A stretch of 64,000 bases of DNA from an uncultured Pelagibacteraceae bacterium (GTDB taxonomy: Bacteria; Pseudomonadota; Alphaproteobacteria; Pelagibacterales; AG-422-B15), in contig CACCCN010000001.1 in the NCBI GenBank assembly GCA_902544525.1, positions 229,289 to 293,288 on the forward strand. Reading direction: 5' to 3'. The notes below the pieces were generated by a model. The model made no database searches. It worked only from the letters and a program-made list of their open reading frames with translations, and had not been told where the DNA came from. The translations under genes were made by a program, and so were the position numbers. Position 1 is the first letter of the stretch. Each line of letters starts with the position of its first letter. This document shows, one piece after another, positions 37,211-51,025 of this stretch.

Positions 37211-38038
37211 TTAGTTCTTTAATATTTCAAATAATTCATTTGTAATTTCTGGATACACTCCATGCCAAATTCTAAATGACTCTGCAGCTTGATATACCAA
37301 CATGGCCAACCCATTTTGAAAATTTAAGTTATTGGTTTCCGCTTCTTTCAAGAGATTTGTTTGTGAGGGCTTATAAACCAGGTCATAAATATAAAGATTT
37401 TTTTTTGCTTCTTTCAGATTCAAATTTAAATTTTCATTTCCAGACATTCCAAGTGAACTTGTATTAATAATCATATCTAGGTTTGGAACAAGATCTTGCA
37501 TTTCATTAAATTTATGAGTTTTTAAGTTTACCTTTAAATCATGGGATAATATCTTAGCTTTATCGGGTGTCCTGTTTGCAATTATTATTTTTGCGTGCAT
37601 TGTATTTAGCGCATAAACAATAGACCTTGCTGATCCACCCGCACCAACAACAAGAACATTTTTTTTTATAATGTTTGTGTTTTTTGTTTTATTGTTGATT
37701 GAATTTATGAACCCTTTTGGGTCGGTGTTATTTCCAATGACCTTGCCGTTCTTGAAAGTCAGGGTGTTTACAGCTTTTAGTTTTTTAGAGGTTTCACTTA
37801 ATTCTTCACAAATATTAAATGCAAGTTCTTTTAATGGTATCGTTACATTTAAACCTATAAAGTTATCATTTATTAGGTTGTGAATTTTTTTGTTAAGTTC
37901 TAATGCATCAATTTTTATTTTTTGATATACATCTGTCTTTATTTTATTTTTTTTTATCCAGTAGTTATGAATGCCGGGTGAAAGGCTGTGATTGATTGGG
38001 CTTCCAATAACTGCTGTTTTTGTTAATGTTTCAGCCAT
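37211..38038 (-). CDS. aroE: Shikimate dehydrogenase
   Basis: 275-residue NADP-dependent enzyme of the aromatic amino acid pathway. GSPINHSLSPGIHNYW near 12 binds shikimate; LNVTIPLKELAF near 63 has the catalytic lysine; VVGAGGSARSIVYAL near 130 and IANRTPDKA near 152 bind NADPH. The start overlaps the maf stop by 8 bases. Confidence 0.96.
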   Translation of the reverse strand: MAETLTKTAVIGSPINHSLSPGIHNYWIKKNKIKTDVYQKIKIDALELNKKIHNLINDNFIGLNVTIPLKELAFNICEELSETSKKLKAVNTLTFKNGKVIGNNTDPKGFINSINNKTKNTNIIKKNVLVVGAGGSARSIVYALNTMHAKIIIANRTPDKAKILSHDLKVNLKTHKFNEMQDLVPNLDMIINTSSLGMSGNENLNLNLKEAKKNLYIYDLVYKPSQTNLLKEAETNNLNFQNGLAMLVYQAAESFRIWHGVYPEITNELFEILKN

Positions 38039-38621
38039 AATATAATATATTATTCTGCCATAAAAATTGTGTTAATGGAAGAAGTGGTAAACCAAGTATT
38101 GAAAAGTAATCACCATCAATTTTATTAAGCAATTTTATGCCCTCTTGTTCAATTGCATAAACACCCACACAATCCAGGGTTTCCTTGTCCATATTGTTTA
38201 AATATTCGTCTATTTGTTTTTCGCTTAATTCTCTCATAGTTATTTTTGCAACATTATGGTGCTTCCAAACAACAACACCGTTCTTTGCGATGGTTATTGC
38301 TGTAATGAGTTTGTGAGTTTTGCCGTTGAGCTTTAAAAGTTGTTTTTTTGCTTCTTGAAGGTGTGTAGCTTTATTAATTAAGGAGCCATTTAAATCTAAT
38401 ACTTGATCCGCACCAATTACAAAGTCTTCAGAATACTTCATTGAGGGTTTAATGGCTTTGATTTCAGAAAGCTGGATAGATGTATCTTTTGGACACAGCT
38501 CATTAAGAGAAATCTTTAACTCTTCTTCGTCCACACCATGATCCACAACTTTAAAGTCTATTTTTGCTTTCTTAAGTATTTCCGCTCTTGTTTTGCTTCC
38601 AGATGCAAGTAGTAATGTCAT
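38031..38621 (-). CDS. maf: Maf-family nucleotide pyrophosphatase
   Basis: 196-residue Maf/YceF-type dTTP/UTP or m7GTP pyrophosphatase. LLASGSKTRAEILKKA at the N-terminus and VIGADQVLDLNG near 67 are diagnostic. It is the first gene leftward of the probable replication origin and is transcribed away from it. Its promoter must lie in the 38622-38902 gap. Confidence 0.92.
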   Translation of the reverse strand: MTLLLASGSKTRAEILKKAKIDFKVVDHGVDEEELKISLNELCPKDTSIQLSEIKAIKPSMKYSEDFVIGADQVLDLNGSLINKATHLQEAKKQLLKLNGKTHKLITAITIAKNGVVVWKHHNVAKITMRELSEKQIDEYLNNMDKETLDCVGVYAIEQEGIKLLNKIDGDYFSILGLPLLPLTQFLWQNNILYYG

Positions 38622-38902
38622 TGTATATCCTGTTAGTAACTGCGTTTGTTATGTTTATTATAGATTTATATTGTTAATGGTTTTTCTTGTCTTCACTTAT
38701 CGCAAATTTAATTAGATAATAACTATCGTTTTGTCCACCTGTTGATTATATAGTAAAACATAATCAGTGTTGTGTATAAGTTAAAGAATTAAAATAAAAA
38801 TAGGAATAGTTGTTGTTTTTGGGTGTTTATTAATTTGATGTTTAGAAGTTACAAACAAACCAACAGGCCCAACAACTACTACTATACTATATATAAATAT
38901 AT
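38622..38902. other. Probable chromosomal replication origin (oriC) region, maf-hemE gap
   Basis: Longest gene-free gap in the window (281 bases), AT-rich. A perfect DnaA box TTATACACA lies on the minus strand at 38771-38779. A weaker TTGTCCACC is at 38731-38739, and two degenerate TAATAAACA boxes are on minus at 38652-38660 and 38824-38832. AT-rich runs at about 38781-38805 and 38881-38905 could be unwinding elements. Coding strand flips here: NUDIX-dnaQ-coaE-aroE-maf point left, hemE-hemH-hemG-rho point right. In Caulobacter and other Alphaproteobacteria oriC lies next to hemE, and parAB with parS is about 10 kb away, as here. Promoters for maf and hemE must also be inside. Replication initiation is inferred, not shown. 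Confidence 0.8.
38807..38878. repeat. Nine-base inverted repeat across the base-composition flip in the origin gap
   Basis: TAGTTGTTG at 38807-38815 and its complement CAACAACTA at 38870-38878, with a 54-base spacer. Further G/C pairing (GGG at 38821-38823 with CC at 38868-38869) is possible. The left arm lies in a G/T-rich stretch without C (38811-38850) and the right arm in an A/C-rich stretch (38851-38880). Confidence 0.5.
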
Positions 38903-39883
38903 ATGAGTATATTCATAGACAGTTTAAATTTTAAAAAAACCAAAAAACCCCCTATTTGGTTTATGAGACAAGCGGGACGACATCTTCCAGAATATAGGGA
39001 GGTAAGATCAAGTTACAGGAATTTAATGGAAATGTTTATGGACTCTAACGTGTGTTCTAAGGTTACACTTCAGCCAGTAGATAAGTATGATTTAGATGCC
39101 GCTATAATTTTCACCGATATCTTAATGATACACATGATAAAAGGTGCTAGCGTTAGCTTTGATAAGCCGGGTGGTCCTATAGTAGAATTTAAAGCAAAAG
39201 AAAAAACAGACTTTAACAACATAAACTTTTTATACGAGGCAATAAAGATAACAAAAAACAAAACCAACAAACCACTTATAGGGTTTGCTGGGGGTCCCTG
39301 GACTACACTGACATATTCAATGTTTAACCCAAAAGAGAGAAAAGAACTTCAAAATCATATAAAGCACAGAGAAAAAGAAATAGAAAAAAAAATAAACGAG
39401 ATAACAGAACTGACCATTGAACATGTTATCAGGCAAACAGACTCGGGGATAGATGCGTTTCAATTATTTGAGTCAGCGGCAGGCATACTAAACGACGATC
39501 AATTAAACAGGTGGTGTATAGAACCTTGTAAACTAATCTTAAAAGAAATTAAAAAATACCAAAATATACCAACAATAGTTTTTCCTAGAGGCGTAACTCT
39601 AAAAAACTATGTTTCATATTCAAATATTTCCAACTTAAATTGTCTTTCCATTGATCAATTTTTTAATTTAAAAAATATAAGCAAACTAAACACAAATAAG
39701 ACAATACAAGGAAACCTTGACCCAAAAACACTCAGATTGGGTGGTAATGAATTAAAAAAAGAAATACGCAAAATATTGCTTGCCTTTAGAGAAACGCCAC
39801 ATATTTTTAACCTAGGACACGGAGTCATTAAAGATACGCCAACCGCAAACGTAGCGGAAGCAGTAAACATAATACGGAGCTAA
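38903..39883 (+). CDS. hemE: Uroporphyrinogen decarboxylase
   Basis: 326-residue heme-pathway enzyme making coproporphyrinogen III. PPIWFMRQAGRHLPEYREVR near residue 16 is the catalytic signature, FTDILMIHMIKGASVSF near 69 and FAGGPWTTLTYSMF near 129 are conserved, and FNLGHGVIKDTP near 304 closes the site. The gene borders the probable origin and reads away from it, as in Caulobacter. It is followed by hemH after 1 base. Confidence 0.96.
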   Translation: MSIFIDSLNFKKTKKPPIWFMRQAGRHLPEYREVRSSYRNLMEMFMDSNVCSKVTLQPVDKYDLDAAIIFTDILMIHMIKGASVSFDKPGGPIVEFKAKEKTDFNNINFLYEAIKITKNKTNKPLIGFAGGPWTTLTYSMFNPKERKELQNHIKHREKEIEKKINEITELTIEHVIRQTDSGIDAFQLFESAAGILNDDQLNRWCIEPCKLILKEIKKYQNIPTIVFPRGVTLKNYVSYSNISNLNCLSIDQFFNLKNISKLNTNKTIQGNLDPKTLRLGGNELKKEIRKILLAFRETPHIFNLGHGVIKDTPTANVAEAVNIIRS

Positions 39884-48712: not shown

Positions 48713-49345
48713 ATGAGTGATGAAGTTGAAAATTTTTCAATAAATAACCCCAATGTTTCACGTGAAACAATCAAAAAACTCTCTATTTTTCGAGAATTTT
48801 TACTCAAAGAAAATCAAAAAACTAATCTTATTGCTAAAAGTCAAAAAGATAAGATCTGGATGAGACATATACATGACTCACTTAGAATTTTAGCATTACT
48901 TAAGGGAAAAGAGCCAGTCAATGTTCTTGACATTGGTTCTGGTGGTGGATTTCCTGGTATACCATTAGCAATTGCAACAAAAAACTTAGATATTCAATAC
49001 ACATTAATTGAAAGTATCAAAAAAAAGTCTGCATTTTTAGAATCGGCGCGCAAATTACTAGATCTTTCTAATGTTAAAGTTATTAATAAAAGGGTTGAAA
49101 ATCTTAAAAATGTTGAATTTGATATTATCACTTGCAGGGCATTAGCAAAAATAACTCAAATTTTTAACTATGCCCATCATTTAACTAAACAAAATACTGT
49201 ATTTTTACTTCATAAAGGTATAAATGTTGTAGATGAAATAAATGAAGCTACTAAATGTTGGTTTTTTGAGCATGAATTGATTAAGAATAAATTAGAGGAA
49301 AATTCTTTTATTGTAAAAATAAATGGACTTAAAAAAATCAATTAA
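48713..49345 (+). CDS. rsmG: 16S rRNA (guanine527-N7)-methyltransferase RsmG
   Basis: 210-residue GidB. NPNVSRETIKKLSIF near residue 13 is the usual N-terminal motif; KTNLIAKSQKDKIWMRHIHDSLR near 36; SAM-binding VLDIGSGGGFPGIPLAIA near 73. It methylates G527 in helix 18. The NVSRET codons contain a perfect parS palindrome (48754-48769), so the DNA doubles as a ParB loading site. Confidence 0.96.
   Translation: MSDEVENFSINNPNVSRETIKKLSIFREFLLKENQKTNLIAKSQKDKIWMRHIHDSLRILALLKGKEPVNVLDIGSGGGFPGIPLAIATKNLDIQYTLIESIKKKSAFLESARKLLDLSNVKVINKRVENLKNVEFDIITCRALAKITQIFNYAHHLTKQNTVFLLHKGINVVDEINEATKCWFFEHELIKNKLEENSFIVKINGLKKIN
48754..48769. other. parS centromere site (ParB-binding palindrome)
   Basis: TGTTTCACGTGAAACA, a perfect 16-base palindrome identical to the conserved bacterial parS consensus. 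It lies inside rsmG, encoding part of its VSRET motif, about 600 bases before parA and 10 kb from the probable origin. It would nucleate ParB and drive origin segregation with ParA. I saw no second full match in the window. Confidence 0.95.
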
Positions 49346-49377: not shown

Positions 49378-50166
49378 ATGTCCAGTAATGTAATTGCCAT
49401 ATGTAATCAAAAAGGTGGAGTTGGTAAAACAACTACAGCTATTAACTTGGCAGCAGCACTTGCTGGAATTGGAAAAAAAATACTAATTTTGGATTTGGAT
49501 CCACAAGGCAATGCAAGCACAGGTCTTGGAATTGAATATTCAGAAAGACGTAATTCAATCTATGAAGTTTTGTCAAACACAATATCATTTGATGAAGGTG
49601 TAAAAAAAACAAATTTAGAAAATCTATTTATTATACCATCAAATGTGGAACTTTCTGGAATAGAGCCAGAGCTTGCAAATGAAAATGATAAAGCATTTGT
49701 ATTAAAATCATTAATGAATAATTCAGACAGTATTAATAAATACGACTACGTCTTTATTGATTGTCCACCTGCTTTGAGTTTATTGACAGTTATGGCGATG
49801 ACTGCGGCAAGCTCTGTTTTAGTACCCTTACAGTGTGAATTTTTTGCACTTGAAGGTTTGAGTCAACTTATAAAAACAGTAGACCGCGTTCACAAAAACT
49901 TAAACCCTTCATTATCAATTGATGGAATAATTTTAACAATGTTTGATAAAAGAAATAAACTTTCTACACAAGTTGCCATGGATGTGAAAAAACACTTACA
50001 AGAAAAAGTATTTGATACAATGATACCAAGAAATGTAAGAGTTTCAGAAGCGCCGTCTTTTGGTATGCCAGCTATAATTTACGATCGAAGATCAAAAGGC
50101 AGTCAAGCTTATTTGCAACTTGCAGATGAAATTTTAAGAAGAACTAATAGCAAAGAGGCCGCATAA
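49378..50166 (+). CDS. parA: Chromosome partitioning ATPase ParA (Soj)
   Basis: 262-residue deviant Walker ATPase: AICNQKGGVGKTTTAINLAAAL near 8-29 with the signature lysine, ILDLDPQGNASTGLGI near 38, and YVFIDCPPALSLLTVMAM near 123. It forms gradients on the nucleoid that move ParB-parS complexes. It follows rsmG and is 4 bases before parB. The short N-terminus means no autoregulatory HTH domain, as in chromosomal ParA. Confidence 0.97.
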   Translation: MSSNVIAICNQKGGVGKTTTAINLAAALAGIGKKILILDLDPQGNASTGLGIEYSERRNSIYEVLSNTISFDEGVKKTNLENLFIIPSNVELSGIEPELANENDKAFVLKSLMNNSDSINKYDYVFIDCPPALSLLTVMAMTAASSVLVPLQCEFFALEGLSQLIKTVDRVHKNLNPSLSIDGIILTMFDKRNKLSTQVAMDVKKHLQEKVFDTMIPRNVRVSEAPSFGMPAIIYDRRSKGSQAYLQLADEILRRTNSKEAA

Positions 50167-50170
50167 TAAT

Positions 50171-51025
50171 ATGAACACATCAAAAAAGGGATTGGGGAGA
50201 GGCCTATCTTCCCTTATGGGTGAGGATACTAACAATGAAACAATTTTACAAACTAGCTATAGCGATACCAAAATAGCTTTATCAAAATTAAAACCAAGTT
50301 CAATACAACCTCGCAGAATATTCGATAAAAACAGTATTAATGAGTTAGCAGAGTCAATTAAATCTAAGGGTTTAGTTCAACCTATATTAGTCAGACCATC
50401 AAGCAGTAACCCCGATGAATTTGAAATTATTGCAGGTGAAAGAAGATGGCGAGCTGCACAAATTGCTCAATTGCACGAATTGCCAGCAGTAGTCAAAAAC
50501 CTAGATGATTCAGAAGCTCTTGAAATGGCAATTATTGAAAACGTGCAAAGAGCAGACTTGTCGCCAATTGAAGAAGCATCTGGATATAAAAAGTTGATGG
50601 AACAATATAATCACACACAAGAAGCCCTTGCGTCAATTTTAGGCAAAAGCAGAAGCCACATTTCTAATATAATACGTCTCTTAAACCTACCAGCTTCCAT
50701 TCAAGATATGATAACTGAAGGCATAATAAGTTCTGGCCACGCAAGAGCAATTATGAATAGCGCATTTCCGGAGCAACTTGCCAAAAAAATTGTGGATGAA
50801 AATCTATCTGTTAGACAGGCAGAACAACTTGCTAAACGAAATAAAAATAAAATTACAAAAATAAAGCTTAAGCCTACAGACACTATAGATTTAGAACAGA
50901 GTCTAACGGAGATACTTGGTTTAGATGTGGTCATATCAGACAGCGGTAAACGTGGGGGGAATATAAAAGTCAAGTATAAGACACTTGATCAATTAGAGCT
51001 AGTTATCAACAAATTAAAACGATAA
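50171..51025 (+). CDS. parB: Chromosome partitioning protein ParB (Spo0J)
   Basis: 284 residues. It starts with KKGLGRGLSSLMGED. The ParB/Srx CTPase domain has LKPSSIQPRRIFD near 39, LVQPILVRPSS near 74, GERRWRAAQIA near 95 and ENVQRADLSPIEEA near 125. The HTH region is about 140-200 (ILGKSRSHISNIIRLLNLP), and the C-terminus dimerises. It binds parS at 48754-48769. It abuts the convergent holA stop. Confidence 0.97.
   Translation: MNTSKKGLGRGLSSLMGEDTNNETILQTSYSDTKIALSKLKPSSIQPRRIFDKNSINELAESIKSKGLVQPILVRPSSSNPDEFEIIAGERRWRAAQIAQLHELPAVVKNLDDSEALEMAIIENVQRADLSPIEEASGYKKLMEQYNHTQEALASILGKSRSHISNIIRLLNLPASIQDMITEGIISSGHARAIMNSAFPEQLAKKIVDENLSVRQAEQLAKRNKNKITKIKLKPTDTIDLEQSLTEILGLDVVISDSGKRGGNIKVKYKTLDQLELVINKLKR

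Follow-up and report, generated by a model that had tools for sequence, protein, structure and literature searches.

The gap between maf and hemE as the probable replication origin of a Pelagibacterales bacterium

Gene organisation of the locus

The window, the whole stretch of 64,000 nucleotides analysed here, comprises bases 229289-293288 of a 299,664-base contig; the genome assembly has 1.26 Mb and is 87% complete. A gap of 281 nt (38622-38902, no strand) separates maf on the minus strand (38031-38621) from hemE on the plus strand (38903-39883). The gap has 25.3% GC compared with about 31-32% in the surroundings and can be aligned across 17 genomes of four genera. The preliminary description had placed a gap with AT-rich flanks here and called it the largest gene-free gap. 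The gap is real, and its rank is true within the window at an ORF threshold of 70 amino acids, with two overlapping-ORF artefacts excluded. A clean divergence of coding direction was also described: the coding direction does diverge at the gap, but genes of both directions occur within the 5 kb to its left.

The best match of hemE was to TIGR01464 (3.7e-85), slightly under the cut-off of that model. Past hemE follow hemH, then rho, mnmE, mnmG, rsmG and the partition genes parA and parB (49378-51025, plus strand). On the other side, aroE, coaE and dnaQ precede maf on the minus strand. The names coaE, dnaQ, mnmG and rsmG were given from translations only. At 38885-38905, AT-rich DNA meets the hemE start codon directly and a ribosome-binding site is not visible; hemE may therefore be preceded by only a very short leader, or be transcribed from a promoter within the origin. 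One of the closest named matches to the SAR11 family of the window, at 41%, was the hemE of a MAG titled Rickettsia typhi (CAMAXU010000012.1, L182). This title may be a mislabel.

A conserved element beside hemE

The 17-genome alignment of the gap revealed conserved islands set in drifting sequence. The CCACCTGT block occupies 38731-38748 and GTGTATAA occupies 38771-38779; a near-continuous block starts at about 38849 and extends up to the hemE start. About 85 hemE-proximal bases are conserved in the four genera. The element begins with DnaA-box remnants, followed by GGCCC, CAACAACTACTACTA and then TATATATA up to the start of hemE. The short G+C spacer GGCCC is located at 38866-38870 (plus strand), and its GG (38866-38867) is present in 16 of the 17 sequences. 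The DnaA-trio-like run occupies 38870-38884. Its top strand reads CAA CAA CTA CTA CTA, and the minus strand, 3'-GTT GTT GAT GAT GAT-5', is the strand predicted to be bound. C and A are invariant at 38876, 38878, 38881, 38882 and 38884 in all 17 sequences. A putative AT-rich unwinding stretch (38885-38902, no strand) reaches the hemE start codon; within it, TATATATA at 38888-38895 is invariant save one base. The trinucleotide run and TATATATA (38870-38895) are kept across the family and had escaped the first reading of the sequence.

A search of both strands of the 300-kb contig gave a single copy of ACTACTACTA, the top-strand form of the run. Runs of at least four C.A triplets were found in 8 of 12 representative family gaps versus a fraction of 0.00 of shuffles. 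Other alphaproteobacterial hemE loci had such runs in only 4 of 70 cases, so the strong C.A run is a trait of the family and not of the class.

A sequence-only model of the 87 hemE-proximal positions, with the window included, gave one strong match per genome in 31 family genomes. These matches scored 52-75 bits and abutted hemE, and the next-best match anywhere reached 18 bits. Since the window belongs to this model, a control profile without its genus was run. Built from three other genera and searched against the 300-kb contig, it had the hemE gap as its sole match (E 1.3e-6).

DnaA boxes in the gap

The perfect DnaA box TTATACACA on the minus strand at 38771-38779 is present as claimed. 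The genus keeps it as TGTGTATAA on the plus strand, and it is nearly kept elsewhere. Weaker boxes had been listed at 38731, 38652 and 38824. These exist, but each has two mismatches to TTATNCACA, and such sites are not above chance: nine sites with at most two mismatches were observed in the gap versus 7.4 expected (P = 0.32). The single perfect box has P = 0.055, and boxes with at most one mismatch are not enriched in the 281 nt. As the box density is no greater than chance, boxes alone would not single out the hemE gap. Box counting as the sole evidence for an origin gave no signal over chance and was dropped. Strict patterns for CtrA, IHF and GANTC gave no consensus site in the gap (no TTAAN7TTAA, no WATCAANNNNTTR).

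The inventory of the gap consists of one perfect box and eight sites with two mismatches, with box cores kept in relatives. A facing pair of degenerate boxes is formed by TTGTCCACC (38731-38739, plus strand) and TAATCAACA (38740-38748, minus strand), each with two mismatches in the window. Relatives have TTATCCACC / CTGTGGATAA at 38731-38748, and the CAC and GT cores are invariant in the 17 sequences. Closer to hemE, two overlapping box remnants are located on the plus strand, TTACAAACA at 38849-38857 and AAACCAACA at 38857-38865. Their counterparts in relatives are TTATAAACA / ATATACACA and TTCACAGG / TCCACAGG. ACA is invariant at 38855-38857 and at 38863-38865 in the 17-sequence alignment. 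Position 38862 is C in 15 of the 17 sequences and A in the window, which has CAACAGG versus CCACAGG or TCACAGG in these 15. The view of a minimal origin with one DnaA box was only partly correct: read from their sequence, the boxes are degenerate rather than absent.

GC skew, parS and the position of dnaA

The families are abbreviated f1 (G000-G036, including the window) and f2 (G037-G059, the sister family, which has closed genomes). GC skew was sampled in twenty 20-kb stretches from each of four closed f2 genomes. The mean leading-strand skew peaked when the origin was set at hemE (offset 0.00), in agreement with coding direction, and was equalled by 1 of 20000 independent random rotations; this skew reflects the coding strand in large part and has a resolution of about 5% of the genome. 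Taken singly, three of the four genomes peaked within 4% of hemE and one at +0.06 to +0.10.

A perfect parS site, TGTTTCACGTGAAACA, is located at 48754-48769 (no strand), 9.9 kb from the gap. It had been missed at first and is the sole copy in the assembly with one mismatch allowed. At the same tolerance, TGTTTCACGTGAAACA was found in 51 of 60 genomes, once per genome except for one genome with two copies. The reversed pattern served as control and had zero matches in all genomes but one. The distance of parS from the hemE start could be measured in 47 genomes. It is 7.1-13.5 kb downstream in 45 of them and 17-19 kb, on the other side, in two. The switch of side was seen in G041 and G052.

In many bacteria, the origin is located next to dnaA. 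Here, a dnaA-dnaN-recF cluster (C1:201645-205363), with dnaA itself at C1:203951-205363, lies 63 kb away and has a 342-nt gap of 19% GC in front of it. An origin at this place would make the hemE gap an ordinary promoter region. This reading is highly unlikely. The gap upstream of dnaA has no DnaA box with at most one mismatch and no match to the model of the conserved element. The cumulative skew of the own contig, which like the fourfold-site skew (also in G006) is dominated by gene direction and cannot decide the matter, continues to fall past dnaA, and the skew optimum of the closed relatives is at hemE and not at the dnaA position. The vicinity of parS to hemE or ppsR (7-19 kb) also argues against an origin on the dnaA side.

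The location of dnaA itself is a further argument. The gene is single. In 12 genomes (f1 and genus g7) it is found on the maf side at a distance of 61.7-70.8 kb, and in 14 genomes of genus g6 on the hemE side at 60.6-73.7 kb. These marker positions suggest inversions that were symmetric about the origin: near-equal distances on switched sides point to origin-centred inversions and are unexpected for an origin that travelled with dnaA.

The sister family separates the element from hemE

A gene for ppsR (DUF299/COG1806, Pfam Kinase-PPPase) is present in 23 of 23 f2 genomes and in 0 of 37 f1 genomes. By this loss in f1, maf came to border the origin. In f2, the gap lies between ppsR (minus strand, then maf) and hemE in 19 of the 21 loci read. 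The profile of f1 did not detect the f2 gaps by sequence, and a separate f2 model was therefore made. The f2 gaps contain TTATTCACA-like boxes, then CTAATACTA-like trios.

The exceptions to the gene order are two genomes of genus g5 (G037:C1, G040:C1), which have hemE elsewhere. Their hemE is divergent, with 30-32% identity to the HemE of the window, and has other genes around it, about 600 kb away from ppsR. In both genomes, the best genome-wide match of a model trained on the other f2 gaps, with the g5 genomes left out, lay 203 nt away from the 5' end of ppsR as mapped from its domain. The match scored 16.7 bits (E 0.008) in one genome and 18.5 bits (E 0.002) in the other; these E-values are modest, and the location had been predicted beforehand in both. 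The parS site of g5 lies close to ppsR (19 kb) and far from hemE (about 600 kb).

The g5 genomes bear on the reading of the conserved block as a promoter or 5' regulatory element of hemE, such as a regulated -10/-35 region or an RNA switch. The transcription of hemE must begin somewhere in or near the gap, the block abuts the hemE start codon, and the AT-rich TATACTATATATA could act as a -10 element. However, the element stays beside ppsR in g5 where hemE was relocated and is thus not simply a hemE promoter. A search of Rfam found no fitting family; one miRNA match had 18 bits versus a gathering score of 91. The block also has box-like motifs and a phased trinucleotide run. A purely regulatory role is extremely unlikely, and the conserved block may be both origin and hemE promoter.

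Another reading is a degenerate relic of the origin of ancestral Alphaproteobacteria, in which case replication of this species would today start at another place or without an origin. The worn boxes of the window relative to its genus (CCACAGG to CAACAGG) and box counts equal to chance would agree with a relic. This reading has next to no likelihood, however, given that trio run, TATATATA stretch, perfect box and parS have all remained intact and that the assembly (87% complete) contains no second strong model match.

Proposed function and significance

The maf-hemE gap is very probably (about 94%) the oriC of this bacterium of the SAR11 order (Pelagibacterales). This reading, already proposed in the preliminary description, is borne out by footprinting, the skew polarity in closed relatives, the proximity of parS, the side switch of dnaA and the retention of the element beside ppsR. 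Position, conservation, uniqueness and independence from hemE carry the assignment, and DnaA binding, melting and firing are predicted from it. The strong evidence for an origin is comparative and is not the box argument made earlier. As judged from the bases alone, the conserved core is a module of box, trinucleotides and putative AT-rich unwinding stretch, and not a single perfect box.

Initiation may proceed as follows. DnaA would bind to boxes dispersed over 38731-38865, most of them of low affinity. From the remnants at 38849-38865, it would be loaded past GGCCC onto the lower strand of the trinucleotide run. The DnaA filament would stretch the bound strand and open the TATATATA stretch just before hemE. 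Helicase could be loaded at the opened site, and forks would depart in both directions. ParB would load on parS and segregate the new origins.

SAR11 bacteria count among the most numerous cells of the ocean. Growth estimates from metagenomes that are based on replication require a known origin. No described SAR11 origin was found in the literature searched, and a footprinted origin is now given for a second family of the order. The relocation of hemE, the loss of ppsR and the side flip of dnaA are natural experiments in which the origin is uncoupled from the genes that usually mark it.

Comparison with known origins

In the basal unwinding system (BUS), one DnaA-box or several in tandem are followed by a short spacer, then by repeated 3'-GAT-5' trios and the site of unwinding (PMC6669920, PMC8287927). 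The element resembles the incC BUS of Bacillus subtilis and other origins in its box remnants, G+C spacer, at least three 3'-GAT-5' trios and AT-rich DNA, and order and strand agree. With 3'-GAT GAT GAT-5' at 38876-38884, the window has the at least three DnaA-trios (3'-NAN-5') of this system. The published rule for the box allows at most 2 mismatches and a location within 16 bp of the trios (PMC8287927). The window departs from it through decay of the trio-proximal boxes: TTACAAACA deviates from TTATCCACA at 3 positions, and 18 nt separate it from the CTA run. Relatives of the same genus pass, and the box rule holds in L003, L004, L031 and L007 of the same family. A scripted form of the rule was passed neither by the window nor by most genomes of genus g3; it is too lax or too strict for AT-rich DNA.

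A second difference concerns the trios. The published rule is a conserved middle adenine on the bound strand, and the columns at 38876-38884 deviate from it. In this family, each trio has invariant or nearly invariant outer bases (C.A in the top strand, 3'-G.T-5' in the lower one), and the middle position, which normally holds A on the bound strand, is T in about half of the 17 sequences at two of the three trios. Tentatively, the DnaA-trios of the family may have shifted to a 3'-G-N-T-5' code along with the wear of the boxes, and the bases by which DnaA recognises the single strand would then differ from those in Bacillus. This is a possibility of low probability. With its unusual trio conservation, this lineage allows the DnaA-trio code to be tested outside the model species.

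Among Alphaproteobacteria, the Cori of Caulobacter was mapped experimentally between hemE and COG1806, and Rickettsia has the same order (PMC1914354). The flank opposite to hemE varies; Wolbachia and Ehrlichia have COG1253 (PMC1914354). The gap of the window is like the Cori of Caulobacter crescentus and the oriC of Rickettsia prowazekii in its location beside hemE, its AT-richness and its DnaA-box motifs. The ppsR-gap-hemE order of the f2 genomes is identical to that of both. The window differs from Cori in its other flank, which is maf and not COG1806/DUF299 (ppsR), and in a gap that has degenerate boxes and is without CtrA or IHF consensus sites. The hemE gap is a known kind of origin, an alphaproteobacterial hemE-side oriC, and is expected for its class. 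What exceeds expectation is that the boxes are worn, that ppsR has been lost, that the element is uncoupled from hemE in g5 and that the middle base of the trios is not conserved.
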